From assembly GCF_900116535.1 (NCBI RefSeq), contig NZ_FPAU01000001.1:697687-761686 (forward strand): a stretch of DNA of 64,000 nucleotides, read 5' to 3'. Position numbers and translations under genes: made by a program. Positions 1 to 54,270 of this stretch are shown here, piece after piece. Every line of letters starts with the position of its first letter. The first letter of the stretch is position 1. Under the pieces are notes generated by a model. The model was not told where the DNA came from. It was given only the letters and a program-made list of their open reading frames with translations, and did not search any database. Source of the stretch: Kosakonia arachidis. Lineage in GTDB: Bacteria > Pseudomonadota > Gammaproteobacteria > Enterobacterales > Enterobacteriaceae.

Positions 1-42
1 AACGTCGGAAAATGAAAAGGTAAGACAACACTAGCAAGGAAG

Positions 43-56
43 TGTACATTTGTACA
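43..56. promoter_or_regulatory. Palindrome upstream of rcdA, candidate operator
   Basis: TGTACATTTGTACA is a perfect inverted repeat (two TGTACA arms, 2-bp spacer) that ends 19 bp before the rcdA start codon. TetR-family regulators commonly bind such palindromes in their own promoters, so autoregulation by RcdA is a reasonable inference. Binding is not shown by the sequence. Confidence 0.4.
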
Positions 57-75
57 TAAATCCGTGAGAGGCGCT

Positions 76-618
76 ATGGCACGACGACCGAACGACCCGC
101 AGCGGCGCGACCGCATTCTTGAAGCGACGCTGGACACTATCGCCGAATGCGGCATCCAGGCGGTAACCCACCGCAAAATCGCCAGCTGTGCGGATGTCCC
201 GCTCGGCTCGATGACTTACTATTTTTCTGGCATTGATGCGCTGCTGGAAGAGGCATTCAGCCGCTTTACCGGCCAGATGTCAGCCCAGTACGCCGCTTTT
301 TTTGAGGGTGTCGACAGCCCGGCACGGGCCTGTGATGCGCTTACAGACCTGATCTACGGCGCGCAGGTGACCACCGCGCGCAATATGGAACTGATGTACC
401 AGCTCTATGCGTTTATGAGCCGCCAGCCAATGTTGAAAAGCGTGATGCAAAACTGGATGCGATCCAGCCAGACGACACTTGAACGCTGGTTTGATCCGGT
501 CACGGCACGCGCGCTGGATGCCTTTATCGAAGGGATGACGCTGCACTTTGTGACCGACAGGCAGCCGCTGAGCCGCGAAGAGATCCGCCTAATGATTGGC
601 CGTATCGCCGGGCTCTGA
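76..618 (+). CDS. rcdA: TetR-family transcriptional regulator RcdA (YbjK)
   Basis: 180-residue TetR/AcrR regulator. The N-terminal helix-turn-helix segment (about residues 8-50, with THRKIA and GSMTYYF) is nearly the same as in E. coli RcdA (178 aa), and the C-terminal ligand domain ends [16 protein letters not shown] as in that protein. In E. coli RcdA activates csgD and other stress and biofilm genes. The ATG at 76 is preferred over the in-frame GTG at 64 because it gives the family N-terminus ([11 protein letters not shown]) and has GAGAGG just upstream. In E. coli rcdA is next to ybjL; here about 8 kb of extra DNA separates them. The 3' end overlaps the convergent ComB-type gene by 30 bp. 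Confidence 0.9.
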
Positions 619-1335
619 GCGGTATGCGTTATCCTGCAACCGGCAGGCACGACGGCTGACATCCAGCGCCAGGCACAGCGCGACATCGTGGGCAAAACCT
701 CTATCCTGAAGCTCTCTTGCTGAGGCACAGTGATGCAAATCAGCGAGGCTGCTTTCACCAAATGCCGCCGCTGCCGCATGGGCTTCCGGGGATAGATGGC
801 GTTTGCCGAGGGCGGCAATAATCGCGCCTGCCGCCAGATAATCCTCTACCGCCGGGCGCAGGCTACCATCCGGCCAGCGCTCTCCGGCCGGGATCAGCAA
901 AATGCGTTGAAAACCGGCGCAGGCCTGTGCGGTGGCACTCCGGTTGCGGAAGCAGCCGCTAAATACCGCCGCGCCGCAATCGCGTGCTTTGAAGGCGATC
1001 GTCGAACCGTTCGGCGAGGGCAGCACCAGCCGGTGCCCGGCGGGAATATCGCGCAATGAGGTCGGTGAGAGCGTATAGCAATCGCCACTGAATGTGCGTT
1101 CGAAACTGGCGACATCTGCATCGTTCTCCTGTGCATAGCGCAGCGCGCTGTCATCTTTCCACGGCCATGGGTAGATCAGTGCATCGTTATCATTTGCCAG
1201 GCTGACGCAGGTGGAAAACGACATCACATCGACAATCACCACGCAATCTGCTTCGTGCGCCAGATGTTCTGCCGCCGCTAAACCCCACTCCAGCCGCACT
1301 TCAAACGGGTTTTGGTTGTACCAGGCATTGCTCAT
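589..1335 (-). CDS. 2-phosphosulfolactate phosphatase (ComB) family protein
   Basis: 248-residue protein with the ComB family layout: [16 protein letters not shown] near the N-terminus, [10 protein letters not shown] in the middle, and [21 protein letters not shown] in the C-terminal half (Asp/Glu residues that bind Mg2+). ComB hydrolyses 2-phosphosulfolactate to sulfolactate in coenzyme M synthesis in archaea. Enterobacteria do not make coenzyme M, so the real substrate here is unknown. The ATG at 1335 has GAGG 9 bases upstream; a longer open frame to 1437 has no better start. It converges on rcdA and its last 30 bp overlap the rcdA 3' end. It is absent from E. coli K-12 at this place. Confidence 0.72.
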
Positions 1336-1600
1336 CAGGGGAGGCCTCTGTTCGTTGTCGTCCGCTAATAAAGCAGAATAGTGCGATAAAAAACAGTTCA
1401 TTGGCGATCTGCTGGCAAAGTGCCTGGATAAACGCATCTACAATTCAGATGAATTTCATCCGATTATTGGATTTGACGTTAAAAAAATCGCTGGTAACGT
1501 CTGTGATGTCCATTCCCGCTTTGCCTGCCCTCCCATATTTTTTAATGAGAATGGAGAGGTGCATGATGCGAGGTCGATTCACGATAGTGGGGTGGTTATA

Positions 1601-2593
1601 ATGGCGAATATTTCAGCTTCGGCATTGGCTTCTGACCATGAACTGGCGGGCAATACGCCTGGCGCGGAAGTCATTAATGTTAAAAAATCCCGCGAGCAGA
1701 TAGATTTACTGAGCAATATCGTTTACAGCCAGATTCGGAATGTACGTTCCGTTCGCCAATTAAACATGTCACTCCTGGTTCCACGCACCAGCGCGCTGAA
1801 ACCAGCCCTCATCTACTTCCCTGGTGGCGGTTTTATTTCCACCGATTACGACCAATTTATTGAAATGCGTATGGCGCTGGCAGAGGCGGGATTTGTTGTC
1901 GCCGCGGCGGAGTACCGTGTTGTGCCGGATACTTTCCCGGCGCCGCTGGAAGATGGTAAAGCTGCAGTGCGCTATTTACGCGAACATGCGAAGGCGTACA
2001 ACATCGATCCGCAACGAATCGGTGTGTTGGGGGATTCTGCTGGTGGCTGGATGGCCCAGATGCTCGGCACAACCAACAATATAAAAACCTTCGATACTGG
2101 CGACAACCTCGATCAATCGTCGGCAGTACAGGCGGTTGCGACGTTATATGGCATTTCAAACTTGCTGAATATTGGCGAAGGATTCCCGGAAGAGATCCAG
2201 CGGGTGCATTACTCCCCGTCGGTCACTGAATCGCTGTTGGTGAACGGCGTGGCTTTCAGTCATTTCCCCGGCGCGACCATCGACAGCGATAAACAAAAAG
2301 CGCTGAATGCCAGCCCGATGGGGAATATCAGCGGTAATGAGCCTCCGTTCCTTATTATGCACGGCAGCGCCGACACACTGGTGTCGCCAGTGCAGAGCGC
2401 ACAGCTTTACAATGCGTTAAAAGAGAAGCATGACAAGGTGAAATACATTCTGCTCAACGGCGCAGAACATGGCGATATTTCCTGGTTCCAGCAGGAGGTG
2501 ATCAAAACGGTAGTCGAATGGTTCAAACAGACACTGGGCGCACCCGTTAACGGTGAGGGCAAAGCGGCAAGCGGTAAAGACGATAACCTGTAA
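1601..2593 (+). CDS. Alpha/beta hydrolase (esterase/lipase family)
   Basis: 330-residue alpha/beta-hydrolase of the HSL/carboxylesterase type. FPGGGF forms the oxyanion-hole motif, GDSAGG is the nucleophile elbow (Ser), the likely acid is Asp in HGSADTLV and the base His in GAEHGD. There is no signal peptide, so it is probably cytoplasmic and acts on a small ester. The ATG at 1601 follows GGGGTGG; a GTG at 1559 with GGAGAG overlapping it would add 14 residues and cannot be excluded. It diverges from the ComB-type gene and is followed by a hairpin terminator at the edge of the prophage remnant. The substrate is not predictable. Confidence 0.75.
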   Translation: MANISASALASDHELAGNTPGAEVINVKKSREQIDLLSNIVYSQIRNVRSVRQLNMSLLVPRTSALKPALIYFPGGGFISTDYDQFIEMRMALAEAGFVVAAAEYRVVPDTFPAPLEDGKAAVRYLREHAKAYNIDPQRIGVLGDSAGGWMAQMLGTTNNIKTFDTGDNLDQSSAVQAVATLYGISNLLNIGEGFPEEIQRVHYSPSVTESLLVNGVAFSHFPGATIDSDKQKALNASPMGNISGNEPPFLIMHGSADTLVSPVQSAQLYNALKEKHDKVKYILLNGAEHGDISWFQQEVIKTVVEWFKQTLGAPVNGEGKAASGKDDNL

Positions 2594-2650
2594 GCGGAGT
2601 AATAAAGGCTACTGGAGCGCGTTGAGTAATTCCTTAAGGAGTGAATTTCG

Positions 2651-2666
2651 GGCAACAAAAACCCAT
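2651..2666. repeat. Left copy of flanking repeat, candidate attL
   Basis: GGCAACAAAAACCCAT. It matches 8718-8734 except for one extra A in the A-run of the right copy. The two copies bracket all phage-derived genes, as expected of attL and attR of an integrase-mediated insertion. Both lie in terminator hairpins, so convergence on a common A-run plus stem is an alternative. Confidence 0.45.
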
Positions 2667-2686
2667 TTAGATAAATGGGTTTTCAA
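2657..2686. terminator. Rho-independent terminator after the hydrolase gene
   Basis: AAAACCCATTT / AAATGGGTTTT stem with a 4-base loop and U-rich flanks in both directions. Its left arm is part of the 16-bp sequence repeated at 8718, so the hairpin doubles as the left border of the prophage remnant. The rest of 2594-2973 is AT-rich, with no coding frame I can support. Confidence 0.7.
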
Positions 2687-2973
2687 AAACAATCACTTGC
2701 ATAAAAATCAATGGATTAGGTTTTTGATAAGTACGGGCAACTAAGGGGTAATACCAATCTTTGCCGCCATTTGGCAGTGGTCGTACTTAAGTTGAAAAAA
2801 CAGTTTCTATATTGACAGATATTACGTGACTGTAGTTGAGTATAGACTTAAAATACGCTAGTAACAGGCATTGTAATCTATATGACACCTCAAAAATAGG
2901 CTATATTGAATTCAGTGCTTAAATTAAAAATGAAATTAATACACATATCTTAAGGGTATGGTAAAGGTGATTT

Positions 2974-3789
2974 ATGACAGTGGTGGAGAGGCTTTTTTGG
3001 CCTCCGGTAATTATAATTTTTCTTATAGGTACTATTGGTGGTGAATTAATGAGTGTAATTTCCTTAGCTTTTAATTCATTAAATGTATTTTCAAAAAGTT
3101 ACGCCCAACTGGTTCAGTTTTTTGTTGCATTTGGTACGATGTCTTCCGTCGTAGTAGCTTTATATATTTCTGTCAAAAATAGCAAGCGAGATACATTTGA
3201 ACGTAATTTTTCACTGCTACTTGAACAACATAACGAACAGCTAAAGACTCTTCTAAACCATCCTGATTTTTCTAAAAATCTATCAGAGGTGCTTGGGTTT
3301 GGAGATGAGAAAGATTTGGTATCAGCAAACCAACGGATGCATAATTTAGATTCTTTTTATGGTAGTTATTTTAGAGTTCTTTATTATCTAATGAAGCATA
3401 TTGATAGGAATTATTATGGCTATGTAAATGCTTACAAGAAGAAAAAATTCTATACAAGCATGGTTAGATCATTTTTGAATACTGAGATTACGCTTCTTTT
3501 AATAATAAATGTGGCTCATGCCAAAAAAGGGAATCAGTATTTCGGATACAGAGAGTTAATAGAAAGGTTTTCATACCTAGAACATCTTATTATTGATGGG
3601 GAAGTTTTTGTTTCTGGTTGTTCTGAAGATGTAAGAAATGGACTGAGAATAGAAGGGGCCATTGATGCAATCAAATATAAAACTAAACTTCAAATTTTCG
3701 ATGATATATGCAAGGAATTTCCTGAGGCATCTTTTGGAGACAATGATTTCATAGATTACGTGAAGGATATTAAGAGTCAAATTACGTAG
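2974..3789 (+). CDS. Putative phage abortive-infection protein (AbiC-like, PF16872 type)
   Basis: 271-residue protein with two predicted N-terminal membrane segments (about residues 8-34 and 46-66) and a cytoplasmic domain with FERNFSLLLEQHN, YFRVLYYLMKHID and SFLNTEITLLLIINVAH. I recognise this order as the putative phage abortive infection (putAbiC) family. A start at ATG 2974 is supported by AAAGGTG just upstream. The gene is strongly AT-rich compared with the host genes around it. It lies between the candidate attL and the integrase remnant, a classical cargo position in temperate phages. It is intact although neighbouring phage genes are broken. Family assignment is from motif memory; anti-phage activity is inference. 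Confidence 0.65.
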   Translation: MTVVERLFWPPVIIIFLIGTIGGELMSVISLAFNSLNVFSKSYAQLVQFFVAFGTMSSVVVALYISVKNSKRDTFERNFSLLLEQHNEQLKTLLNHPDFSKNLSEVLGFGDEKDLVSANQRMHNLDSFYGSYFRVLYYLMKHIDRNYYGYVNAYKKKKFYTSMVRSFLNTEITLLLIINVAHAKKGNQYFGYRELIERFSYLEHLIIDGEVFVSGCSEDVRNGLRIEGAIDAIKYKTKLQIFDDICKEFPEASFGDNDFIDYVKDIKSQIT

Positions 3790-3838
3790 ATTATATTATT
3801 GCAAGCATCGATCGTTTTTTATAATATTTGATCCCTGA

Positions 3839-3860
3839 ATGAGCGCTCATGGTTTTTTTT
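3839..3860 (+). terminator. Possible terminator after the AbiC-like gene
   Basis: Self-complementary ATGAGCGCTCAT followed by GG and eight T residues, 50 bases after the stop codon. The hairpin is short and needs its centre as loop, so it is weak. Confidence 0.4.
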
Positions 3861-3910
3861 CATTTAATTAGTGCTAAATTTAGAGAAGTCCTCAATATAA
3901 ATATTCTAAT

Positions 3911-4936
3911 CTAAAGAGAAGAATGCTCTCTTGTTACGAGAGGGTTGAATTTTAGATCTGTTTCTAAGTGATCTGGAGCGAGATGAACATAGCGCATGGT
4001 CATTTTTATGTCGTGGTGCCCCCCGGTATTTTTTGCAGAGCAAGGATGTTTCCGCCGGACATCATAAAATGCACCGCAAACGTGTGGCGCAGCACGTGGG
4101 TTAGTTGTCATCAGGGAAGCACAATCGATGTTTTTCTCCATCACCGCTAAAAGCTGAAAGTAGCAATCTGTGAAGAAATTGAAGCCGTCCAGAGCAATGA
4201 TTTCTTTATACAGTTCTTTGCTGATCGGAATGCTGCAGTTTTTTACCCTTGGCTCTGACAAAGGTAATGCGGTATTTAGTGAACTGCGAACGAGTGAGAT
4301 TCACTGCTTCGCGCCAACGTGCACCGGTACTGAGGCAAATTTTGACAACCAAAGCGAGAAGGGCGCTTTGACGGCTACAGTCGTATAAGAGTTCTGTAAT
4401 TTGCGCATGCGACAGCTAGGCCATCTCCTTTTCTGCAATAGTGAATTTACGCATATTCTCTCGCGGGTTCGGCACGGTCCATCCCCGAGGCGTGCAAGCT
4501 CACTGAAAACACCGCTTAAACAACTCTGCTAAAGGTTGATAGTTACGGGACTGGCTCCTTTCTTCCATTTCTCGCTAAAGTAGATTTCTCCAGTGAGGCG
4601 TTTATCGCGATAGTACGCGAACAACACTGGAAGTGAGAGCGGCAGTAAGGGGATTTCCGAGAGCATCAAACATCAGGAGTAGCTTGTCATAAACGTGTTC
4701 GCCAGCGGTTAGAGATTTGCCGTGCAGTTTGAACCAGAGTTCTACGACATCTTTAAGTGTCCGGAGAGCTAGCGATTCACCCAGCTAGAGTTTAGCCTCA
4801 GCCTCCTCCATTGTATGGTGTTCAAAGGCTAATGCCTCGCCTTTGGTGGCGAACTGCTTACACACATGACGAGCGCTGCTCCCGGTGGGGTAGCATTCAC
4901 AATCCATTTTCCAGTATCGAGTTTCCGTACCGTCAT
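3911..4936 (-). pseudogene. int: P2-type phage integrase, decayed
   Basis: Conceptual translation on the minus strand recovers a P2-family tyrosine integrase in pieces across several frames: MTVRKLDTGKWIV at the start (ATG 4934-4936), then KQFATKGEALAFEHHTMEE, TLKDVVELWFKLHGKSLTAG, YYRDKRLTGEIYFSEKWKKG, and at the end IPISKELYKEIIALDGFNFF and HDIKMTMRYVHLAPDHLE with the catalytic Tyr. At least three frameshifts and several stops separate these blocks, and the HVLRHTFA region with the catalytic His/Arg is scrambled. It cannot make an active recombinase, so the element can no longer excise by itself. Its remains identify the region as a P2/186-like prophage remnant. Confidence 0.88.
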
Positions 4937-4961
4937 AAAAAAGCCCTCATATCTGAGGGCT
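4937..4961 (-). terminator. Rho-independent terminator of the KAP gene
   Basis: Read on the minus strand: stem AGCCCTCA / TGAGGGCT with a 4-base loop, followed by six T. It lies 41 bases after the KAP stop codon and directly before the old integrase start, so KAP transcription would stop before int. Confidence 0.8.
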
Positions 4962-5002
4962 AAATTTAACTGTGTATTTGAATAATGTTTGTTCTTATTT
5001 TT

Positions 5003-6466
5003 TTATACATCGCTATCCAGTGTTGTGCTCAACTCAATTAATTCAAAATATTGTGATTGTGTTATACCTAGATTATTTTCTTTAGTGTCCGCCCACCCCA
5101 CCTTTAATAATACATCCATGTCATTGAAGGTAGCTCTCAAACCTCCAGTTTTCCATGGCAATGGATAGCGTGCATTATAGGGATTTGATGTTGCGTTTCG
5201 TTCTTCAAGTATTCTGAAGTTGTATGTGATGTAGTTTTTTATATTTATTTTTATTTTTTCATTCTTTAATGTGTTTGTTATTAAACCGTCCGGATTTGAA
5301 AAGTAATTGACTCCAGTCATTGAACTTGAAAGATCATATTTTAATAATATTTCCTTATCATAAAATGTGCTGCTTTTTACATCTCTATTATTTTTAATGC
5401 TAAAGTATATTTCGGAGTTAAGCATATATATGCAGGATAATATCAAATATAAAGAAGCATCAATTTTTTTAGTTCCTATGAGAATATAATCCATCAATGA
5501 ATTGTAAATCTTTAATGCATCTCGCAAATTAATTTCAAATGCCTCAAGAATGGATGTGCAATTATCTATAAAATCATCGAGTGAAGGTGGAACCAATACA
5601 AGAATATTTCGTTTTGTATTAAACCCATCTGAAAGTTCTTTCAGTGTATGAGTTTTTATTAAATTGGCCATTTTAGGTGATGGTAATAAAAATCTTCTGT
5701 CAAAAAAACGACTTAAATATAGATTCGCTGAGAAATTACTCCCGTAAATAACTTTTATTGAATGTTGTAGTTGTTCTGTGTCAGTAGCAATTATGAATAC
5801 TACACCTGGGATATTAAAAATATGTTTAGTGACTTCCAATAAACTTATCGCAAAACTTGGTCTGCATCTATCTAATTCATCGATGATGACGAATAAAGGC
5901 AATGCTTTGTTTATCCCATCCTTCTGCTTGATATAGCGAACCCATTCACTAATTCCTTTTTTTATTGTAGCTATTCGTTTGGATTTTTCAGAATGTAATT
6001 CTAACAGTTTTTGCGAAAGGCTTTTGGTGATGTCTGATATGTTCTCAACACCTGTATATTTTTTCGCTAACCCTCCTAAAATTGCTGGTGCTGCTGATTT
6101 TAAAAGTGGCCCGATAGCATCTATAGTGTTATTCATCATCTTTGTGAATTGATCTGACTGCCCTGTTAATTGTTCTTTTATAGAACTAAAAACTGTTAGT
6201 AATGGGTCATCAGAAAAATCTTCTTTCCAAGAGTCTATATAAATAGTTGGATGGTTTTCTGCTATTGTTTTAGCTAGGCGTTTAGTAAAATAAGTCTTCC
6301 CTGCTCCCCATTCAGCATTAAGGTTGATTACAAGATTAGCATTTTCACCACGGGCGGCACATATTTCATATAAATATTTTGCATACTTCTGTCTATCTAA
6401 AGTATCTACGGGTAACTGCTCGCCAAAGAATTCATCATGAATATTCCATTCCCACTTGATATCCAT
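5003..6466 (-). CDS. KAP family P-loop NTPase
   Basis: 487-residue KAP NTPase. Walker A is AEWGAGKT (residues 51-58), Walker B is LFVIIDELDRC (191-201) followed by the typical RPSFAISLLE helix and FIIATD sensor, and LSRFFDRR (251-258) supplies likely arginine-finger residues. Many KAP proteins have membrane helices between Walker A and B; here only a weak hydrophobic stretch (about 117-135) is seen, so it is probably soluble. The ATG directly abuts the ancestral stop codon of the CI repressor gene (TAA then ATG), so it was built into the lysogenic operon and would be expressed in the lysogen. The gene is AT-rich and intact. KAP ATPases occur as phage-borne or plasmid-borne genes, some linked to phage exclusion; that role here is inference. 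Confidence 0.82.
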   Translation of the reverse strand: MDIKWEWNIHDEFFGEQLPVDTLDRQKYAKYLYEICAARGENANLVINLNAEWGAGKTYFTKRLAKTIAENHPTIYIDSWKEDFSDDPLLTVFSSIKEQLTGQSDQFTKMMNNTIDAIGPLLKSAAPAILGGLAKKYTGVENISDITKSLSQKLLELHSEKSKRIATIKKGISEWVRYIKQKDGINKALPLFVIIDELDRCRPSFAISLLEVTKHIFNIPGVVFIIATDTEQLQHSIKVIYGSNFSANLYLSRFFDRRFLLPSPKMANLIKTHTLKELSDGFNTKRNILVLVPPSLDDFIDNCTSILEAFEINLRDALKIYNSLMDYILIGTKKIDASLYLILSCIYMLNSEIYFSIKNNRDVKSSTFYDKEILLKYDLSSSMTGVNYFSNPDGLITNTLKNEKIKINIKNYITYNFRILEERNATSNPYNARYPLPWKTGGLRATFNDMDVLLKVGWADTKENNLGITQSQYFELIELSTTLDSDV

Positions 6467-7021
6467 TTAAGCCTCACTAATTACAGTAAAAACTCTAACT
6501 AACGGTTCGATGTCATTAATATCGCATTCAAAATAAAAGCTATGTCAGTAATTATTGTTTTTTAACAGGAATTAAATTGATTTTTTAATGCTTAACTTCC
6601 CTTCAATTCTTACTAACAACTGTCCATCGGAGATAACAGTATCCCCTTGATTATATATATGTTGATGGGATTTTATAGCCAAGGGAGATTTAATTTCTTT
6701 GAGAAGCAAAAATGGGGAAAATTTGTATGTATCAATAGGCACGATTTCACCATTTTTCAGTTCGTGAGTTTCGATATCAGCCAAGGTTGCGGCTTCGGCA
6801 ACCCTTAACTCCCCTTTGCCTGACACCAGCCAATCAATAGAAACGCCGGTCTCCATTACATATTGCAAAACCCAATCAGCAGGAAAAATGTCACACATGT
6901 AGCGAGTCGCCATAGTGCTCTTTGAGACACCTAAGTGGTCGCAGAGAGCCTGGCGGGTAGTAAACCCATATGCCTCGACTAATTGCTCAATGAATTTCTT
7001 GGCACCGCTATTGAAATCCAT
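6467..7021 (-). pseudogene. cI: 186-type CI repressor, interrupted by two in-frame stops
   Basis: The first 149 codons (7021 to 6572) encode a 186-like CI repressor: an HTH domain (EAYGFTTRQALCDHLGVSKS, DWVLQYVMETGVSIDWL) and the start of the oligomerisation domain (LLVRIEGKLSIKKSI). A TAA (6572-6574) and a TGA (6545-6547) follow. The same frame then continues with FECDINDIEPLVRVFTVISE up to TAA at 6467-6469, matching the C-terminus of 186 CI (192 aa). Without the stops the product would be 184 residues. The simplest reading is a repressor damaged by nonsense mutations. A shortened HTH protein may still be made and could bind DNA, but the C-terminal part needed for higher-order assembly would be absent. 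Confidence 0.78.
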
Positions 7022-7167
7022 AAGTCCTCTAAATCAAACCAAAATCCATTAACAGATTCCAAAAGCGATCTTAAAGTTGAACCCGAAGTACTCTTTCGGA
7101 GCCTTCACTACTAATCACTAACGATAACGGCTAGCCACAAGTCGAACTTAATAAGGAATGTTGCACT
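7022..7167. promoter_or_regulatory. Divergent lysis-lysogeny switch region
   Basis: The 146 bp between the CI gene (minus) and the cox/apl-like gene (plus) must carry the divergent promoters in P2/186-type phages. CCGAA-N7-TTCGG near 7090-7106 is an inverted repeat that could be an operator. I could not assign -35/-10 elements with confidence. Confidence 0.45.
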
Positions 7168-7371
7168 ATGACCCCTAACATTTCAACCACTCTGAATACT
7201 CCCCACGTCACTATTGAACGTTATAGCGAACTGACAAGTCTCTCTGTCGATACGGTTAACGACAAGTTGGCCGATGGTCGCATACCTCGCCATCACTTAC
7301 GTAAAGACAAAAAGCGTGAAAAGATAATGATTAACATCGCCGCTTTGACTGTTGATGCACTGTCCGCTTGA
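7168..7371 (+). CDS. cox: Cox/Apl-like phage regulator and excisionase
   Basis: 67-residue basic protein with a small winged-HTH layout: PHVTIERYSELTSLSVDTVN, then GRIPRHHLRKDKKREKIMIN and a C-terminal IAALTVDALSA helix. This is the layout of P2 Cox and 186 Apl, which repress the lysogenic promoter and direct excision. The ATG at 7168 has AAGGA 9 bases upstream. It is divergent from cI and precedes cII, the standard order in P2/186 phages. It looks intact, but with int destroyed it has no recombinase to work with. Confidence 0.72.
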   Translation: MTPNISTTLNTPHVTIERYSELTSLSVDTVNDKLADGRIPRHHLRKDKKREKIMINIAALTVDALSA

Positions 7372-7437
7372 AAATCGGATGCGTATTTTCATGGCCTCTT
7401 CAGTTCGATTCTGCGATGGGTTTGCATATGAAAAACT

Positions 7438-7839
7438 ATGTTTGATTTTAAAGTTTCCCAACAAGAACATCATCCATGATGCCTGCTGTGCGTTTGCTTT
7501 AAGCCACAATATGGCAAGGCTGGCGGCGCGTGCAGGAATGAACGTTCAAACACTACGTAACAAGCTGAACCCAATTCATCCGCATCAATTTACGGCAGCA
7601 GATATCTGGCTGCTGACCGATCTCACGTAAGGCTCAACGCTGGTCGATGGCTTCTGGCGGTGATTCATTACCTGCCGTGTGTTCCGGCGAGTGAACTGGC
7701 AAAAGAGAAGTTGCCGCATTATGTCATGAGCGTTACCGCTGAAATTGGGCGTGTCGCCGCCGTAGCGTTATCTGATAAGGTGAAAAGCACTACAGGCAAG
7801 CGATGCGTTTACAGCATTAACGCTGTTAAGTGGCGCTGA
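7438..7839 (+). pseudogene. cII: Phage CII protein, frameshifted
   Basis: The start MFDFKVS (ATG 7438) matches 186 CII. The frame then breaks near 7480, and the homologous reading continues in another frame as HNMARLAARAGMNVQTLRNK and NPIHPHQFTAADIWLLTDLT up to a TAA near 7630. A third stretch gives HYLPCVPASELAKEKLPHYV and ends at TGA 7837-7839 well short of the family length. At least two frameshifts, one stop and a C-terminal loss make this a pseudogene. 186 CII promotes establishment of lysogeny. All further phage genes to the right (replication, capsid, tail) have been deleted. Confidence 0.8.
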
Positions 7840-7913
7840 CTAAATGCAGTTTGAGAATAAATTAGATAATACTGAGGCGGGCTTCATATAATTTATTCAC
7901 TTTGTATTTGTTG

Positions 7914-8542
7914 CTAAACCATCGCCGTAATCCGACGTCTGCTAAATCCTGCTTCGTCTGCGGTCTCCATGATTTTGGCCTCTGCTATTGCTTTGCTACG
8001 CATTCCAGAAAGTATCGGCTTGAAAGTATGGTTGTTACCCTGAATATTTAACGGTAGCGAAATATTGGCAATTAAACTTTCTTCCAGTAACCATTGTTCC
8101 TCGTCTGCTACCCAATAAACTTTTGCATTCTGTTCCATCCCCTGGTCAAGCCATTGCTCACCAGAATGGGTAAATGTCGTTCTGGTTCCTGAGCCAGCCC
8201 GGCGCAGCGGGAAATTACTTTCCGTAGCAAGTAATACTCCGAGCGTTCGTCTCAATGTCGAGCCTTCGGCATTGCCACTGTAATGAGTTTTTATTCGCTG
8301 TCGCAAATTGGCGCGGCTATTAGGTTTACCTTTTTTATTGGGTGAAATACCAACATAAAGCAGTGTGTAACCATCATGAGTGATACAACCCGCAGTCGGA
8401 ACGCCAGGGGTGAATCACTTTGAACCACTAGAAATCGATACCATTCACTGCAGGAACAGGCATTGGCCTGCTCATGGCTTCTGATCTGCTGTATATTTTC
8501 TCGGGGTAATAATCGAACATGCGCTTTCCTTGCAGGCGTTTT
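7914..8542 (-). pseudogene. GIY-YIG nuclease family protein, broken at the 5' part
   Basis: The minus strand carries YTLLYVGIS and NLRQRIKTHYSGNAEGSTLR followed by LGVLLATESNFPLRR and QWLDQGMEQNAKVYWV, which is the GIY-YIG-like layout I know from small enterobacterial proteins. The good frame extends upstream to about 8417 without a start codon. The expected N-terminal part (IQQIRSHEQANACSCSEWY) is in another frame, joined by a frameshift near 8405-8412, and lacks a start. The open part from 8306 could still be translated as a 130-residue fragment lacking the GIY segment. It sits at the right end of the prophage remnant and may be phage cargo or a displaced host gene. Confidence 0.6.
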
Positions 8543-8717
8543 CTACGATTCTATTCATTTGCTTTCGCGAAGCGATGGTTTTCAGATGTGATGAGAAGGA
8601 AAAATTTAGAGGGAGGGGCTTCGACTAATGCAACACATTTTGGCGCTGCCGCCTCTCCATCGCCATCAGCTTCGATGCGCTGCTCTAATTAGCTGATTTA
8701 TGAATCATTAAATAGCA

Positions 8718-8734
8718 GGCAACAAAAAACCCAT
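8718..8734. repeat. Right copy of flanking repeat, candidate attR
   Basis: GGCAACAAAAAACCCAT, matching 2651-2666 with one extra A. It overlaps the U-tract and first stem bases of the ybjL terminator. The sequence between 8543 and 8717 holds nothing I can support as a gene. Confidence 0.45.
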
Positions 8735-8768
8735 CAACCTTGAACCAAAATGGCGGGGTTGATGGGCT
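8724..8768 (-). terminator. Rho-independent terminator of ybjL
   Basis: On the minus strand a 10-bp stem (CCCATCAACC / GGTTGATGGG) is followed by six T, about 100 bases after the ybjL stop codon. Confidence 0.75.
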
Positions 8769-8868
8769 CCACAAAATGGGGACATCAAAGAAAAGCAGTG
8801 GCACTAGTTATGACTGACACCCCAGAAAAAAGTTCTGCGCATAACTGAAATATTTTCCAGCTTCGGAG

Positions 8869-10554
8869 TTATCCGAGCCCCGGCCAGATGATGATAATCA
8901 GCGTCCCCGCCAGGGTTAGCAACACGTTGGCGATCGCGTAGGTTCCGGCATAGCCCAGTGCCGGGATATTGCTGCGCGCGGTATCGCTGATGATCTCCAT
9001 GGCGGGCGCGCAGGTACGTGCGCCCATCATGGCACCAAAGAGCAGGGCGCGGTTCATTTTCAGCACGTATGCGCCGAACAGGAAACAGATCAGCACCGGA
9101 ACAAGGCTTACGATCAACCCGGCGATCAGCATCTGCCCACCGATGGCACCCAGGCCATGACCAATGCCGCTACCGGCACTTAAACCCACACCAGCCATAA
9201 ACACCATCAGGCCAAACTCTTTCACCATCATCAGCGCACCCTGAGGGATATAGCCGAACGTTGGGTGGTTCGCACGCAGGAAGCCAAGCATGATACCGGC
9301 AAACAGCAGACCGGCGGCATTACCCACGCCAAAACTGAACGAGCTGAACTGGAAAGTGATCATGCCGATCATCAGGCCAACAATAAAGAAGGCGCAGAAG
9401 GCGAGCAGATCGGTAACCTGGCTGTGAATCGAGATAAAGCCGATGCGGTCAGCAATGGTTTTCACCCGGCGGGCATCGCCGCTGATTTGCAGCACGTCGC
9501 CTTTGTTGAGCACGATATTGTCGTCGATCGGCATCTCAATCTGGCTACGGATCACGCGGTTAAGAAAGCAACCGTGATCGGTCAATTTCAGCTGTGCGAG
9601 ACGGCGACCAACCACATTGTGGTTTTTCACCACCACCTCTTCCGTCACGATGCGCATATCCAGCAGATCGCGATCGAACACCTCTTTGCCGTTGCGGAAA
9701 CTTGGATCGAGGCGCGCATGCGCGTCCGGATAACCGACCAGCGAGATCTCATCGCCCATTTGCAGCACCGCGTCACCGTCCGGGCTGGCGAGAATACCGT
9801 TGCGTCGAATACGCTCAATATAACAACCGGTCTGGCGATAGATCCCCAACTCACGCAGGTTTTTGCCGTCTGCCCAGGCCACCAGCTCCGGCCCGACGCG
9901 GTAAGCGCGGATTACCGGCAGATAAACTTTGCGATGGGCATCGGTATCGAGGCCGCGTTCGCGCGCGATCTGTTGGGCGCTGGTTTGCAGATCCTGGTGT
10001 TGCAGCTTTGGCAAATAACGCGCACCGAAAATCAGGCTGACCAGACCAATCAGGTAGGTTAACGCGTAGCCAAGGCTGAGGTTATCCAGCGCTTTGGCAA
10101 GATGACCGCTCTCCATCGAGGTATGACGCAGCGTATCGCCTGCGCCAACCAGCACGGGGGTTGAGGTCATTGAGCCTGCCAGCATCCCGGCAGTGAGGCC
10201 AATATCCCAGCCGAACAATTTTCCCAGACCTAAGGCGATTAGTAGCGCGCTGCCAACTAATACCAGCGCGAGCATCAGATAATTTTTGCCGTCGCGAAAA
10301 AAAATCGAAAAAAAGTTGGGGCCAGCTTCAACACCCACACAAAAAATAAACAGCATAAAGCCAAGATTTAATGCATCCGTGTTTATGCTGAAATGCTGCT
10401 GACCTAATAATAGTGAAACGACTAAAACGCCAATGGAATTACCGAGTTGTACCGAACCCAGACGTAATTTACCAAGACACAGGCCGAGTGCCAGTACGAC
10501 AAACAATAACAGTATGTAATTCCCGTTTAACAAATCTGCGACGTTTATATTCAC
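8869..10554 (-). CDS. ybjL: Putative transporter YbjL (AAE family)
   Basis: 561-residue inner-membrane protein, the same length as E. coli YbjL. It has the Asp-Al exchanger layout: five or six N-terminal membrane helices (residues about 1-180), two central TrkA-C/RCK-like domains (about 200-375), and a second membrane half with [16 protein letters not shown] and the family motif [14 protein letters not shown] near the C-terminus. The family includes aspartate:alanine antiporters; the substrate of YbjL is unknown. It is monocistronic here, with its own terminator, and is the first core gene right of the prophage remnant. Confidence 0.93.
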
Positions 10555-10828
10555 GGAGGCTAACTTCTTGTTTACTTGTAAGTTGTTGAAAGGAATGGTT
10601 ATTTGAGCTAGTGTTTTGAACGTGTGCTGGCATAAAAAAGCGGCGTTGCTCCACGCATTTTTCGCAAAACAAAAACAGGGCGATAGTTTAATCGGATTGG
10701 ATTACAACGGCTAGTGAGAATCGCGTGTTTACGGCCAGACCATTTCAGATATGGATTGCCGTTCCCCTTTATCTGTCCGGACATTCTTTGGAACGAACGG
10801 GTGTGTGATAGAGAGTCAGGAGGGTTGT

Positions 10829-11188
10829 TTGAAGCTCAGGCGGCGTCGGCTCGGTGTTATTTGTAGTTTTTTACTCTTTATTGCGGTATGCCTTTCTTTG
10901 GTCGTTAGCATGGAAGGGGATTTGCCAGGTACGGGTAAACCTGAAACAGGTTTGTTGTTTTTCATATTGCCCGGTATTGCCAGCGGCCTTGCTGCTCGCC
11001 GTCGCAGAGTGGTTAATGCGCTGCTGGGGGCGCTGCTGGCGCTACCGTTCAGCTTTGTACTGATGCATCTGTTTCTGTTGCCGTCGCGATCGGTGTGGCA
11101 GGAACTGGCCTGGCTGTTCAGCGCAGTGTTCTGGTGTGGTATCGGCGGTCTGGTGTCTCTGTTTGTCGGCAGAATGTTCAGGCACTAA
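10829..11188 (+). CDS. ybjM: Inner membrane protein YbjM
   Basis: 119-residue hydrophobic protein with about four membrane helices, resembling E. coli YbjM (125 aa), for example GLLFFILPGIASG and SVWQELAWLFSAVFWC. Function unknown. I chose the TTG at 10829 because a near-perfect AGGAGGG lies five bases upstream and the product then starts LKLRRRRLG like the family; the open frame extends 26 codons further but lacks a ribosome site there. It diverges from ybjL and converges with grxA. Confidence 0.8.
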   Translation: MKLRRRRLGVICSFLLFIAVCLSLVVSMEGDLPGTGKPETGLLFFILPGIASGLAARRRRVVNALLGALLALPFSFVLMHLFLLPSRSVWQELAWLFSAVFWCGIGGLVSLFVGRMFRH

Positions 11189-11189
11189 A

Positions 11190-11211
11190 CGCCCCCGGAA
11201 ATGGGGGGCGG
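11190..11211 (-). terminator. Hairpin between ybjM and grxA
   Basis: CGCCCCC / GGGGGCG stem with a short loop lies between the convergent ybjM and grxA ends. On the minus strand it is followed by TTTAG, so it may end grxA transcripts. The U-tract is poor. Confidence 0.45.
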
Positions 11212-11222
11212 GCGTCATGCTG

Positions 11223-11486
11223 TTATGCAAACAGGCCGAAATGCTGTTTGGCGTAAGCTTCAAAGTCAGTGCAGCCGCCAATGTGTTGCTGGTCGAGGAA
11301 AATCTGCGGTACGGTTTCGACCGGTTTACCGACGGTTTTTTCCAGATCGGCTTTCGTGATCCCTTCCGCATGAATATCGACATAGCGATAGTTGAAATCA
11401 TCACGTTCAACAGTCAGTTTTTCTGCCAGCTCTTTTGCGCGCACGCAGTACGGGCAGCCTGGGCGGCCAAAAATTACAGCAAACAT
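11223..11486 (-). CDS. grxA: Glutaredoxin 1
   Basis: 87-residue thioredoxin-fold protein with the active-site motif CPYC (residues 11-14), the cis-Pro segment ETVPQIF and the glutathione-binding QHIGGCTDF. Glutaredoxin 1 reduces ribonucleotide reductase and protein disulfides using glutathione. E. coli GrxA has 85 residues. In E. coli it is OxyR-induced and divergent from ybjC-nfsA; here it is divergent directly from nfsA because ybjC is missing. Confidence 0.96.
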   Translation of the reverse strand: MFAVIFGRPGCPYCVRAKELAEKLTVERDDFNYRYVDIHAEGITKADLEKTVGKPVETVPQIFLDQQHIGGCTDFEAYAKQHFGLFA

Positions 11487-11664
11487 ACTCTCTCCTTAAA
11501 CCTGAAGGCTAATGACCGCTATCATGAACAACCCGCGGCCAGATGGAAAGCAGGTTCTGCCTGTTGCATTAATCTCTGCAACCTTTCAGGACAATTTCGG
11601 CTTACTGCAATCCTCCGTCTCTGTCCTATACTCGGGAGTCTTGTTTATACGGGGATTATTCATC

Positions 11665-12387
11665 ATGACACCAACGATTGACTTGCTGTGCGCCCATCGT
11701 TCCATTCGCCACTTTACCGATCAGCCTGTCACCCAGGAACAGCGTGAGGCAATTATCGCCAGCGCGCAGGCGACCTCCAGTTCCAGCTTTTTACAATGTA
11801 GCTCGATCATTCGCATAACCGATACGGCGATGCGTGAGCAACTGGTGACATTGACCGGCGGGCAGCAGCATGTCGCTCAGGCGGCTGAGTTCTGGGTGTT
11901 CTGCGCGGATTTCCATCGTAACTTTGAGATCAGCCCGGAAGCGAAACCCGGCCTTGCGGAACAACTGCTGCTGGGTGTGGTGGATACCGCGCTGATGGCG
12001 CAAAATGCCTTTACGGCGGCGGAATCTCTGGGTCTCGGCGGTGTTTATATCGGTGGTATTCGTAACAATATCGAAGCGGTGGGCGAACTGTTAAAGGTAC
12101 CAAAACATGTGCTGCCGCTGTTTGGCCTGTGTCTTGGCTGGCCGGCGGATGATCCGGGTTTAAAACCCCGTATGCCAGCGTCATTGCTGGTGCATGAAAA
12201 CCATTATCAGCCGCTGGATCGCGAGGTACTGGCGCAGTATGACGAAGATCTCGCCAACTACTATCTTACGCGTGACAGTAATACGCGCCGCGATACGTGG
12301 AGCGATCATATCCGTCGCACACTGATTAAAGAGAATCGTCCTTTTATTCTCGATTATTTGCATAAACAGGGATGGGCAACACGCTAA
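11665..12387 (+). CDS. nfsA: Oxygen-insensitive NADPH nitroreductase
   Basis: 240 residues, as in E. coli NfsA, with close identity along the whole length (HRSIRHFTDQP and SSSFLQCSSIIRITD for FMN binding; SLGLGGVYIGGIRNN; C-terminal FILDYLHKQGWATR). It uses FMN and NADPH to reduce nitroaromatics and quinones by two electrons. The open frame extends 51 codons upstream of ATG 11665, but this extension is not conserved and the ATG gives the exact family length. It probably forms an operon with rimK and ybjN. Confidence 0.96.
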   Translation: MTPTIDLLCAHRSIRHFTDQPVTQEQREAIIASAQATSSSSFLQCSSIIRITDTAMREQLVTLTGGQQHVAQAAEFWVFCADFHRNFEISPEAKPGLAEQLLLGVVDTALMAQNAFTAAESLGLGGVYIGGIRNNIEAVGELLKVPKHVLPLFGLCLGWPADDPGLKPRMPASLLVHENHYQPLDREVLAQYDEDLANYYLTRDSNTRRDTWSDHIRRTLIKENRPFILDYLHKQGWATR

Positions 12388-12460
12388 TTCCCGTTCATCC
12401 TGCACTTCTCTGCGTGTATGATACGCGGGCTTTAACGGCTCTTTTTTAGCGAGGTGCAGG

Positions 12461-13363
12461 GTGAGAATTGCCATATTGTCCCGGGACGGAACGCTTTATT
12501 CATGTAAACGCCTGCGCGAAGCGGCTGCGCAACGCGGCCATATGGTCGAAATTTTCGATCCTCTCTCCTGTTACATGAATATCAGCCCTGCGGCATCGTC
12601 CATTCACTATAAAGGCCGTCAGCTCCCGCATTTTGATGCAGTGATCCCACGCATTGGCTCCGCCATTACCTTTTACGGTACGGCTGCACTGCGCCAGTTT
12701 GAAATTCTGGGCAGTTATCCGCTCAATGAATCCGTCGCAATTACCCGCGCCAGGGATAAACTGCGCTCGCTGCAACTGTTGGCACGCCAGGGGATCGATT
12801 TACCGGTGACCGGTATTGCGCATTCGCCGGATGACACCAGCGATCTGATCGATATGGTCGGCGGCGCGCCGCTGGTGGTAAAGCTGGTGGAAGGTACGCA
12901 GGGGATTGGCGTGGTGCTGGCGGAAACCCGGCAGGCAGCAGAAAGCGTGATTGACGCGTTTCGCGGTCTGAATGCGCATATTCTGGTGCAGGAATTTATC
13001 GCCGAAGCGAAAGGGTGCGATGTTCGCTGTCTTGTCGTCGGCAATGAAGTGGTTGCGGCCATTGAACGCCGGGCGAAAGAGGGGGATTTTCGTTCTAACT
13101 TGCACCGGGGGGGGCAGGCAACCGTCGCCAACATCACGCCGCGCGAACGCGAAATCGCGCTGGCTGCCGCGCATACTCTGGGGCTGGATGTTGCGGGTGT
13201 TGATATTCTGCGTGCAAATCGAGGGCCGCTGGTGATGGAAGTGAACGCGTCGCCGGGGTTGGAAGGCATCGAAAAAGCCACCGGCATGGATATTGCCGGG
13301 CGAATGATCGAGTGGATTGAACGTCAGGCAACGCCTGGATTTTGCCTGAAAACAGGCGGCTAG
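12461..13363 (+). CDS. rimK: Ribosomal protein S6--L-glutamate ligase
   Basis: 300-residue ATP-grasp ligase, the same length as E. coli RimK. It carries [19 protein letters not shown] at the start, the ATP-grasp lysine/loop segment [18 protein letters not shown] (about 139-156), and the Mg2+ site [14 protein letters not shown] (about 256-269). RimK adds glutamates to the C-terminus of ribosomal protein S6. Translation starts at GTG 12461. It follows nfsA by 73 bases and precedes ybjN. Confidence 0.96.
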
Positions 13364-13446
13364 GGCATTTTCCTGCGCTATTAATGGTAGCTGGCGCCCT
13401 TTTTGCGTAAGCTATGGGCAATTTTTCAGTAAGAGAGCATTACGTT

Positions 13447-13932
13447 ATGGATTCACTCGTCGTTCCTGTTCTGGACACGCTTCGTCACTGGCTCGACGAA
13501 CTGGGTATCACTTTTTTTGAGTGTGATAACTGTCAGGCTTTGCACCTGCCGCATATGCAAAATTTTGATGGTGTGTTCGATGCGAAGCTCGACCTGGTGA
13601 ACGACATCATGCTGTTTACGGCGATGGCGGAAGTGAAACCTTCGGCGCTGCTGGCGCTGTCAGCGGATCTCTCTGCTATTAACGCCAGTTCGCTGACCGT
13701 AAAAGCGTTTCTCGATATTCAGGATGATAATCTGCCGAAGCTGGTGGTGTGCCAGTCTTTATGCATTGGGCCGGGTGTGACCTTCGAGCAGTTCGCCTGG
13801 TTTATGCGCCAGAGTGAGGAGCAGGTTTCCATGGTGATTATGGAAGCCAACGCGCACCAGATGCTGTTTCTTGCGACAGAAGGCGAGGAAGAGTTCGTTG
13901 AGGGTGACGCAACGCGCAATTTTCTCCACTGA
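13447..13932 (+). CDS. ybjN: YbjN family sensory-transduction regulator
   Basis: 161-residue protein close to E. coli YbjN (158 aa), with FFECDNCQALHLPHMQNFDG and DNLPKLVVCQSL. YbjN has a type III secretion chaperone-like fold; in E. coli its level affects motility, biofilm and stress genes, but the molecular role is not clear. The ATG at 13447 gives the conserved N-terminus DSLVVPVLDTLR; an upstream ATG at 13414 would add 11 unconserved residues. The C-terminal tail (about 25 residues) is divergent. Confidence 0.9.
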   Translation: MDSLVVPVLDTLRHWLDELGITFFECDNCQALHLPHMQNFDGVFDAKLDLVNDIMLFTAMAEVKPSALLALSADLSAINASSLTVKAFLDIQDDNLPKLVVCQSLCIGPGVTFEQFAWFMRQSEEQVSMVIMEANAHQMLFLATEGEEEFVEGDATRNFLH

Positions 13933-13949
13933 CTCCTGGCCGTAATTCA

Positions 13950-13992
13950 TGCAGTCGCTGCCAACGCGGCTGCAAAATAAATATTTTTATTT
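13950..13992 (+). terminator. Probable terminator after ybjN
   Basis: TGCAGTCGC / GCGGCTGCA stem with one wobble pair, followed by an A/T-rich tract including TTTTTATTTT, 17 bases after the ybjN stop. Confidence 0.5.
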
Positions 13993-14143
13993 TGCTTTTA
14001 ACCTTTCTCTAAAGAACTATTCACCGCACTTCCGGCGGTGAAGGCTTATCCCATAGACATATCCTGCATAAAAAATTGATAAACCGCGTTTTTTAATCTG
14101 ACCTATAGCCTCAAACCCTGGCTACAGTTATTCTTGCGCTGTT

Positions 14144-14270
14144 TATACCCGTCATCCTTCAAGTTGCATGTGCGTTGACTTTCCTCGCTCACCCCAGTCA
14201 CTTACTGGAGTAAGCTCCCGGGGATTGGCTGCGTCGCCGCCTTCCTGCAACTCGAATTATTTAGGGTAAA
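14144..14270. repeat. ERIC element (enterobacterial repetitive intergenic consensus)
   Basis: About 127-bp imperfect palindrome. The ends TACCC...CAAGTTGCA and TGCAACTCG...GGGTA are complementary. The centre contains CGCTCACCCCAGTCACTTAC and GTAAGCTCCCGGGGATT, which match the well-known ERIC core used for ERIC-PCR. It lies in the 475-bp gap between ybjN and potF. If transcribed it would fold into a long hairpin upstream of potF. A further hairpin (TTCACCGC / GGCGGTGAA, 14020-14042) lies just before it. Confidence 0.85.
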
Positions 14271-14332
14271 CAACAGCATGTGGTGTCTGCCGGAAGCGTT
14301 TTCTCCTCCGAGTCTGTGCAGAATGACAAAAT

Positions 14333-14348
14333 ATGCATGATTCTTGCA
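14333..14348 (+). promoter_or_regulatory. Candidate sigma-54 promoter of potFGHI
   Basis: ATGCATGATTCTTGCA fits the -24/-12 pattern xTGGCAyr-N4-TTGCa except that the first G of the -24 GG is T. It ends 59 bases before potF. Nitrogen-controlled transcription is sensible for a putrescine importer. No NtrC site was identified with confidence. Confidence 0.4.
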
Positions 14349-14407
14349 TACCTTAAAATGCGTACATTTGGTTCGTATGTTAACTGGCTTTCCAGAAGGA
14401 ATGAGAT

Positions 14408-15520
14408 ATGACCGCCTTGAGCAAAAAATGGGTATCAGGTCTTGTCGCGGGTGCGTTGATGGCTGTCTCTGCCAGCACGCTCGCAGCCGAGCAAAAGACG
14501 CTGCATGTATATAACTGGTCTGATTATATTGCGCCGGATACCGTCGCAAATTTCGAAAAAGAAACCGGTATTAAAGTTGTTTATGACGTGTTTGATTCCA
14601 ACGAAGTGCTGGAAGGCAAACTGATGGCGGGCAGCACCGGCTTCGACCTGGTGGTGCCATCGGCCAGTTTCCTTGAGCGCCAACTGGCAGCCGGTGTATT
14701 CCAGCCGCTGGATAAGAGCAAGCTGCCAAACTGGAAAAACCTCGATCCGGACGTGCTGAAGATGGTTGCCAAGCATGATCCGGACAACAAATACGCCATG
14801 CCGTACCTGTGGGCGACCACCGGTATTGGTTATAACGTCGATAAAGTTAAAGCCATACTGGGCAAAGACGCGCCGGTGAACAGTTGGGATCTGGTACTGA
14901 AGCCGGAAAACCTGGAAAAACTGAAAAGCTGCGGCGTCTCTTTCCTCGATGCGCCGGAAGAAATTTTTGCCACTGTGCTGAACTACCTCGGCAAAGATCC
15001 GAATAGCACCAAAGCGGATGATTACACCGGTCCGGCAACGGACTTGCTGCTGAAGCTGCGTCCGAATATCCGTTATTTCCACTCTTCGCAATACATCAAC
15101 GATCTGGCGAATGGCGACATCTGCGTGGCGATTGGTTGGGCAGGGGACGTATGGCAGGCCGCTAATCGCGCGAAAGAAGCGAAAAATGGCGTCAACGTGA
15201 CCTACACCATTCCGAAAGAAGGCGCGCTGGCATTCTTTGATGTCTTCGCGATGCCAGCTGATGCGAAAAATAAAGATGAAGCTTATCAGTTCCTTAACTA
15301 TCTGATGCGCCCGGATGTGATTGCCCATATCAGCGATCACGTGTTCTATGCGAACGGCAACAAAGCTTCTGTGCCGCTGATCAGCGAAGAAGTGCGTAAC
15401 AACCCGGCAATCTTCCCGCCGCCGGATGTCTTCGCTAAGCTGTTTACGCTGAAAGTCCAGGATCCGAAGATTGACCGCGTAAGAACCCGCGCATGGACTA
15501 AAGTTAAAAGCGGCAAGTAA
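14408..15520 (+). CDS. potF: Putrescine-binding periplasmic protein PotF
   Basis: 370 residues, as in E. coli PotF, with a Sec signal peptide (cleavage after ASTLAA, about residue 26). The binding-site residues lie in conserved segments: NWSDYI, STGFDLVVPSASF, LPYLWATTGIGYN and GWAGDVWQA. It captures putrescine in the periplasm and delivers it to PotHI-PotG. It heads the potFGHI operon, preceded by an ERIC element and a sigma-54-like promoter. Confidence 0.97.
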   Translation: MTALSKKWVSGLVAGALMAVSASTLAAEQKTLHVYNWSDYIAPDTVANFEKETGIKVVYDVFDSNEVLEGKLMAGSTGFDLVVPSASFLERQLAAGVFQPLDKSKLPNWKNLDPDVLKMVAKHDPDNKYAMPYLWATTGIGYNVDKVKAILGKDAPVNSWDLVLKPENLEKLKSCGVSFLDAPEEIFATVLNYLGKDPNSTKADDYTGPATDLLLKLRPNIRYFHSSQYINDLANGDICVAIGWAGDVWQAANRAKEAKNGVNVTYTIPKEGALAFFDVFAMPADAKNKDEAYQFLNYLMRPDVIAHISDHVFYANGNKASVPLISEEVRNNPAIFPPPDVFAKLFTLKVQDPKIDRVRTRAWTKVKSGK

Positions 15521-15660
15521 ATCAATTACCTGATCGGTGATTTGATTGCACTACCATGGTGCAATTGCCCTAAAGCTGGACAGAGGTACTGCACCTCTGT
15601 TCAGCCATTTGTAAGTCAACCTGTTGAAACAGGATGATGTTTATGCCGGAGAGCACTGGA

Positions 15661-53328: not shown

Positions 53329-53348
53329 TCTCTGCTGTTAGCAACTAA

Positions 53349-53378
53349 AAACCGGGCTCATGTGAACCCGGTTTTTTT
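53349..53378 (+). terminator. Rho-independent terminator of clpA
   Basis: AAACCGGGCTC / GAACCCGGTTT stem, 4-base loop, then seven T, about 20 bases after the clpA stop. Confidence 0.9.
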
Positions 53379-53751
53379 ATCCCTGTAATTTGTCTATCAG
53401 GCGGGTTGCTGGCCTCCCGGGGTGATTTCATTTGGCGATTCTGCATGTCGCGACAGCCTGCAATTTCTCTTCTGGCATTCTGTTTCTTGGCGGCGCGCAA
53501 TGTGCGGAACCAAATAGATGCGAACAACTTTTCGGAATCTGACAGAGACATTTCTGGCTAAACACCTGTGATAAAGACCTGGCATCTATTAAAAACAACA
53601 GGATGATATCGTTTCCCTTCAGTTCACTGCCGCACAGGCAGTTTAAAATCGTAACTATCGGACAGAAAACCGTTTGCCAATGTTGCAACTGTAGAGAGGC
53701 AGAAAATAACGGGCCGACAAAATCGGTGGGTAAAAGCTAATTAAAGGTTAA
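53379..53751. other. Non-coding stretch where E. coli has tRNA serW
   Basis: No tRNA-Ser (GGA) is present on either strand: the T-arm GGTTCGAATCC and acceptor pattern are absent here and in the whole clpA-infA gap. Small open frames exist without ribosome sites or recognisable products. The base composition is lower in GC than the flanking genes. Confidence 0.6.
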
Positions 53752-53956
53752 TTTAGAGCCTACCCCATTAGGCTATTTCATTTGCTATTTTGGTCCTGGG
53801 CAGTGCTCACACAAAATGTGTTGGCATTTTGAACGCCGCTTGCGGCAGCCCTTTAGGGCGAGCGAAGCGAGTAATCCTCACGTACTGCATGTACGATCCG
53901 GCTGTCCGCGTCCAAACTGGCTGCAACACTTTACACCTGGTGGGATAGGCTCTTAG
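53752..53956. repeat. MITE-like repeat with terminal inverted repeats and several hairpins
   Basis: About 205 bp bounded by TTAGAGCCTACCCCA and its near-complement TGGGATAGGCTCTTA (13 of 15 pairs). Inside are at least four hairpins: CAAAATG/CATTTTG, GCCGC/GCGGC, GCCC/GGGC and CGTAC/GTACG. It has no coding capacity. I recall similar dispersed intergenic elements in Enterobacter/Klebsiella relatives, but copy number cannot be judged from this window. Confidence 0.65.
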
Positions 53957-53984
53957 CAGCACTATTATTTCTGTTGCGAAGAAA

Positions 53985-54012
53985 CAAAAAAGACCGGGAA
54001 TTACCCGGCCTT
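53985..54012 (-). terminator. Rho-independent terminator of infA
   Basis: On the minus strand a CCGGG/CCCGG-based stem (GGCCGGGTAATTCCCGGTC) is followed by TTTTTT, 36 bases after the infA stop. Confidence 0.85.
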
Positions 54013-54048
54013 TAAAAGAGAAGCACTTAACTGTGCTGGCGGAAGATC

Positions 54049-54270
<222 letters not shown>

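Follow-up and report, generated by a model that had tools for sequence, protein, structure and literature searches.

The window analysed here, a 64,000-nucleotide stretch of the Kosakonia arachidis genome (contig NZ_FPAU01000001.1, positions 697,687 to 761,686), carries at 5003..6466 on the minus strand an intact gene for a KAP-family P-loop nucleoside triphosphatase (NTPase) of 487 amino acids with an ATG start. We consider it likely that this gene (hereafter KAP) encodes a single-gene antiphage NTPase, the surviving cargo of a dead P2-like (Fels-2-like) prophage, expressed with the phage repressor and kept by the host; its transcription, its sensing and its effect on phages are what we infer.

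In the proposed mechanism, a Fels-2-like P2-like prophage would once have been integrated at the small RNA gene rybB, with KAP as the cargo that survives it. In the living phage, the interval from the repressor gene cI to the integrase gene int would be an exchangeable slot, its cargo read from the repressor transcript; a KAP in this slot would be translated from a ribosome-binding site within the last cI codons and closed off from int by a terminator. Made along with CI, the protein would wait as a soluble NTPase, probably in a ring like that of RdrA, and would work alone as both sensor and effector: its C-terminal domain would recognize a signal of the invader, and the NTPase would then stop either phage growth or the cell. 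We put forward only tentatively, and with clear doubt, the more specific proposal that slot KAPs are ring-forming, RdrA-like sensor NTPases with an exchangeable C-terminal recognition domain of undescribed fold, in one translation unit with the repressor that is closed by a terminator at the int start, and that hosts (the window and a second remnant, G278) have domesticated them repeatedly. Under that proposal repressor and sensor would form one translation unit, and therefore immunity towards similar phages and defence against dissimilar ones would rise and fall together.

An open gene in a decayed prophage

The rybB gene (8721..8799, minus strand) is complete (Rfam RF00110, 106 bits, positions 1-79 of 79) and probably serves this prophage family as its attachment site. 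An empty site is present in a genome of the same genus (G003), where rcdA, a ComB-like gene and a hydrolase gene are followed 95 bases further by rybB with no prophage; in the window, the sequence from approximately 2600 to 8720 occupies this hydrolase–rybB gap. Passages of Hochhauser et al. 2023 (PMC10121019) report that Felsduovirus prophages integrate at rybB (hotspot 29, filled in 109 E. coli genomes) and carry diverse defence systems at dedicated positions; integration site and phage group are those of the window remnant, although those passages do not give the cI–int interval as one dedicated position.

The prophage in the window is dead. Its integrase gene, a tyrosine recombinase remnant of P2-like type (3932..4936, minus strand), has accumulated six frameshifting indels and five nonsense codons in 1020 nucleotides relative to the intact int of G012 (same genus, 87% identical DNA). 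The cI gene (6467..7021, minus strand) is interrupted by stop codons in the last quarter of its frame, and present-day CI, an open reading frame (ORF) of 149 amino acids at 6572-7021, stops at 6572. The cII remnant (7438..7827, plus strand) has a broken frame, and between cII and rybB the window lacks replication and capsid genes. Still open are KAP, an AbiC-like gene beyond int, and a small cox-like excisionase/repressor gene (7168..7371, plus strand). A reading of the sequence alone had placed KAP for expression with the repressor in the lysogen: the slot behind the repressor stands, but with cI, cII and int broken there is no working lysogen. Because these three genes have decayed and the frames of KAP and the AbiC-like gene remain open, KAP is now probably kept for the host and is in effect a host gene.

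Might KAP instead be an unexpressed, decaying passenger whose frame still happens to be open? In favour of this, the nearby int, cI and cII are broken, and the nearest relative of KAP, at 59% identity at best, is too distant to gauge selection since the onset of decay. Yet KAP shows zero lesions in 1464 nucleotides versus 11 in the neighbouring int; assuming equal rates in the two genes, 8.6 frameshifts would be expected in KAP, and the chance of finding none is near 2e-4. The putative cI promoter region and the terminator described below persist as well, and the same survival of KAP recurs in G278, which belongs to another genus of the family. There, an int stub follows the same terminator, of cI only the final codons preceding the KAP ATG are left, and KAP is open (484 amino acids, 56% identical to that of the window), all beside rybB. 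Given how far the two KAPs have diverged, independent decay is the simplest reading, and we judge a chance survivor very unlikely. If the favoured reading of KAP as retained defence cargo is correct, the window is a clean example from nature of how a prophage defence gene can outlive the phage that brought it. The remnant also holds a broken GIY-YIG (PF20815) gene between cII and rybB (7896-8520, minus strand), of which G278 has an intact copy upstream of KAP and beside rybB (L102, 9218-9844).

A cargo slot between cI and int

The KAP start codon (ATG, 6464-6466) directly abuts the TAA (6467-6469) that ends the ancestral cI frame, ...ECDINDIEPLVRVFTVISEA. The end of this frame, ...VFTVISEA, can still be read and is homologous to the intact CI end of E. 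coli W, ...ECDISDIKPIAKVHTVISEA, and about 100 untranslated bases now separate the stop of the truncated CI from KAP. A GTGAGG (6472..6477, minus strand) inside the last cI codons resembles a ribosome-binding site, presumably that of KAP, and a site of this type is kept in the loci with an abutting junction and in G278. Stop and start likewise abut (gap 0) in the intact prophages of E. coli W and JNE151685, and among the 29 viral contigs having KAP between cI and int, eight share this junction; these eight read aGTGAGGctTAA directly followed by ATG, or nearly so (L151 has TGA instead of TAA), and such loci are partly non-independent (the KAP of L148 is identical to that of E. coli W). The direct succession of CI stop and KAP start given by the sequence-only reading was thus correct, and its conservation across relatives rules out a chance origin; the conserved sequence of the last cI codons before the KAP ATG in turn points to a ribosome-binding site within them. 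Upstream, the cI–cox intergenic region (7022..7167, minus strand), the putative cI promoter and operator, is well conserved with intact prophages in a 10-sequence alignment, and with CI truncated this promoter region could now run free of repressor.

Genes that prophages carry next to the repressor are known to be expressed in the lysogen. In lambda, rexAB is a defence gene set on the repressor transcript that is active in lysogeny and lowered in the lytic cycle, its proteins being unrelated to KAP. A second parallel, from passages of PMC11087260, is Tha of the Staphylococcus aureus phage 80alpha, encoded on the cI transcript and silent upon induction; it too is unrelated to KAP, being a HEPN ribonuclease with its own inhibitor. 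If KAP is defence cargo of this kind, the abutting junction would let the phage avoid its own defence at induction, the defence ceasing along with the repressor.

Downstream of KAP, an intrinsic-terminator hairpin with an 8-pair stem (4942..4961, minus strand) is followed by a T-run (4937-4942) that enters the int ATG (4934-4936), in agreement with the terminator that had been proposed between the two genes. A plain terminator scan of the region shows no excess (6 found, shuffle mean 5.0). Across relatives, however, the int ATG is immediately preceded by a hairpin, irrespective of cargo, in all 23 loci for which the int start was located (29 tried, six not located); 22 of them have a T-rich tail behind it (L104 lacks one), and the hairpins occur in at least two sequence versions. 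A stricter search recovers the hairpin in 33 of 63 loci, G278 among them, the 30 misses being mostly cases in which the int-start pattern was unmatched, other phage types included. This terminator belongs to the phage core, and its presence whatever the cargo suggests that the cI–cargo transcript ends before int.

What fills the interval in relatives varies. KAP in the window is co-directional with cI and int, and E. coli W carries an int-to-ogr prophage at the same site with the order int, KAP, cI and an insertion sequence (IS) element in the tail-fibre region. DNA matches of at least 80% cover occur in 12 of 5426 E. coli genomes (11 of the W type, one of the JNE type), and further slot types found by DNA match are the EPEC type (15 genomes) and the CI5 type (34). 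We opened 18 slot loci (16 from E. coli, two from phage records), a non-random set drawn from matches to KAP-linked or int–cI queries: six hold a KAP, three a DUF4041 gene, one a HEC-01 pair, one PDC-M11A, and seven other genes. The one DUF4041 gene scanned matches PD-Lambda-1, a system that passages of PMC9519451 report as recovered by experimental defence selection; they locate the P2 systems of that study elsewhere in the P2 genome, at two other positions. A second view comes from an even sample of 60 out of 1304 E. coli records, in which 35 rows bridge int and cI, with cargo judged by annotation and spacing. Two of these name a KAP gene and five a 314-amino-acid hypothetical gene type (one opened); 15 further sampled rows match int only, and all five of those opened hold larger cargo.

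Relatives of KAP in alignment A1 come from 41 viral and 33 genome contigs. Counting those with a full ORF, 29 of 40 viral but only 2 of 31 genome contigs have KAP in the cI–int interval, as detected with int and CI queries of this phage group, which may miss divergent phages. On a tree of 98 KAPs (41 in the slot, G278 included, and 57 elsewhere), slot membership changes five times by parsimony, against a mean of 31.5 in shuffles (0 of 500 as low as 5); the tree is a quick one with some long branches and partly redundant contigs, and at least three of the changes sit on well-supported branches. Therefore at least two other KAP groups (CI5-like and Vibrio) occupy the slot besides that of the window. 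A corresponding hotspot is known from K139-like Vibrio phages, where Rousset et al. 2022 (PMC9122126) describe exchangeable cargo with defence domains in the same cI–integrase interval of a P2-related phage; the present case differs in concerning enterobacterial rybB-site phages and cargo in a remnant, and the main text of that paper does not name KAP.

These patterns also bear on the idea that KAP is a lysogeny gene serving the phage, as a CI partner or in the control of int and excision, and is for that reason coupled to cI. The conserved, translational-style coupling, the position before int, and a junction that travels with a matching cI 3' end would all fit. Against it, prophages of the same family freely carry unrelated genes or a small ORF in the slot instead, relatives of KAP also occur away from cI and int (for example in Ewingella and on plasmids), and KAP has outlasted both genes in two remnants; we regard this account as improbable. 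If KAP is instead defence cargo, the stretch from the cI stop to the int-start terminator would be a validated-looking address at which to collect single-gene defences of P2-like enterobacterial prophages.

Prophages of this kind vary at other points too. CI repressors of approximately 290-314 amino acids with a second helix–turn–helix-like segment at their start, or two tandem CI genes, are present in L028, L030, L074, L075, L077 and L076 (the last with two CI genes), prophages whose slot holds other cargo. Further defence-like genes lie between the replication gene and portal, namely a GmrSD-domain protein (NsnA and PD-T4-2 matches) and a TIGR02391 protein (PD-Lambda-3_B match), at L021 30498-32279 and L022 16405-17556.

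The KAP protein and its likeness to known defence systems

KAP aligns end to end with full-length relatives and is a clear match to Pfam KAP_NTPase PF07693 (E 1.5e-40, 139.7 bits, cutoff 20). Residues G54, G56 and K57 and the stretch D196-E197-L198-D199-R200, which we take to be the Walker A and Walker B motifs, are unchanged across 61 aligned sequences. A transmembrane insert between these motifs is common, though not universal, in KAP NTPases; in KAP, 19-residue hydropathy windows reveal no transmembrane-like segment (maximum 1.52). The protein falls into the PADLOC candidate family PDC-S20 (hidden Markov model E 1.8e-81, 273 bits, residues 21-373; four models match) and phrog_8614, and the slot KAPs of E. 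coli W, JNE151685, CI5, LD91-1 and EPEC match PDC-S20 likewise; the C-terminal approximately 110 residues of KAP extend beyond the matched stretch. Its layout joins an N-terminal NTPase core that is conserved (1-265) to a C-terminal domain that changes fast (about 330-487) and looks like a recognition part. If so, specificity could be mapped by comparing natural alleles, in which a conserved NTPase is joined to a fast-changing, apparently exchanged C-terminal part. Most of the differences between the natural alleles L148 and L150 fall in this part.

The AlphaFold2 model (predicted local distance difference test 88.5, predicted template modelling score 0.84) may resemble the RADAR ATPase RdrA, with low Foldseek template modelling (TM) scores of 0.34-0.40 of the query; RdrA chains have about 780-850 residues versus 487 here, at 13% sequence identity. 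PifA likewise provides single-gene exclusion of the KAP type. Tmn is a further KAP-type NTPase that acts as a single gene, with two transmembrane domains according to passages of PMC11846954, whereas KAP shows none. Identity with two named proteins was rejected: PifA matches at 61 bits and not full-length (KAP residues 27-269 to model 23-261 of 720), and QatA of QatABCD reaches 45.9 bits versus an NCBIfam equivalog cutoff of 600. Already known, then, are PDC-S20 as a database candidate, the cI–int type of hotspot, and single-gene KAP defences such as Tmn; as far as our searches show, four things are new: a cI–KAP unit whose two genes abut, a terminator at the int start that borders the slot, a C-terminal part that has apparently been exchanged, and a KAP that survives in two dead prophages.

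Several observations weigh against KAP as host-kept defence cargo, beyond the low TM-scores, the non-random choice of slot loci and the assumption of equal decay rates. In seven of the 18 slot loci the cargo is a small ORF, a TPR gene or other genes lacking a defence call; PADLOC, run on the slot ORFs of all of these but L024 and L080, gave zero matches for L023, L028, L030, L075 and L079. In 28 of the 35 bridging rows the interval holds a small ORF only, one with an IS insertion. The suggestion that the slot is typical for exclusion cargo is borne out in part: comparison of the interval in relatives did uncover alternative cargo that includes relatives of PD-Lambda-1, HEC-01 and PDC-M11A, matching validated or candidate defence families, while those seven loci lack such a call. 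PDC-S20 is a candidate family only, named in no paper of the searchable literature, and no RdrB gene accompanies KAP among the listed ORFs of 1-16000 or the profile matches. A DNA-level lesion count assigned KAP three indels versus E. coli W and three versus JNE151685, and the AbiC-like gene one versus G012; we take these as misalignment, because both frames are open, DNA identity is 61%, and the KAP protein aligns end to end. For most pairs, synonymous divergence is saturated.

The far side of int and other features

The AbiC-like gene (putAbiC PF16872; 2974..3789, plus strand) is open and encodes N-terminal hydrophobic segments. A counterpart 58.7% identical over 259 amino acids lies at the same place beside int in G012. 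It had been suggested that KAP acts either alone or with this membrane protein, and a two-gene system would accord with both genes being open in the remnant and with the same pair of gene kinds flanking int in G012. However, in G012 the accompanying KAP is a different one (33% identical over residues 47-262 of the window protein), and the genes lie on opposite strands. The AbiC-like gene was not seen in the fetched prophage segments of E. coli W and JNE151685, which carry KAP, and a search of G278 gave zero matches. The pair is thus not required, and we give a two-gene system little credence; KAP acting alone remains the favoured reading.

Elsewhere, window positions 53622-53649 (plus strand) match Rfam CRISPR-DR4 at 40.8 bits; since direct repeats of at least 20 bases are absent within 53000-54600, there is no CRISPR array at this site. 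The region between the attachment side and int is a second variable place (L080 3066-4294, L023 5410-5895, L022 5824-6093 and window 2974-3789), with no PADLOC match among the genes scanned in E. coli. In the window and G012 this place holds the AbiC-like gene; elsewhere it contains small hypothetical genes or a Panacea-domain gene with a hypothetical one.
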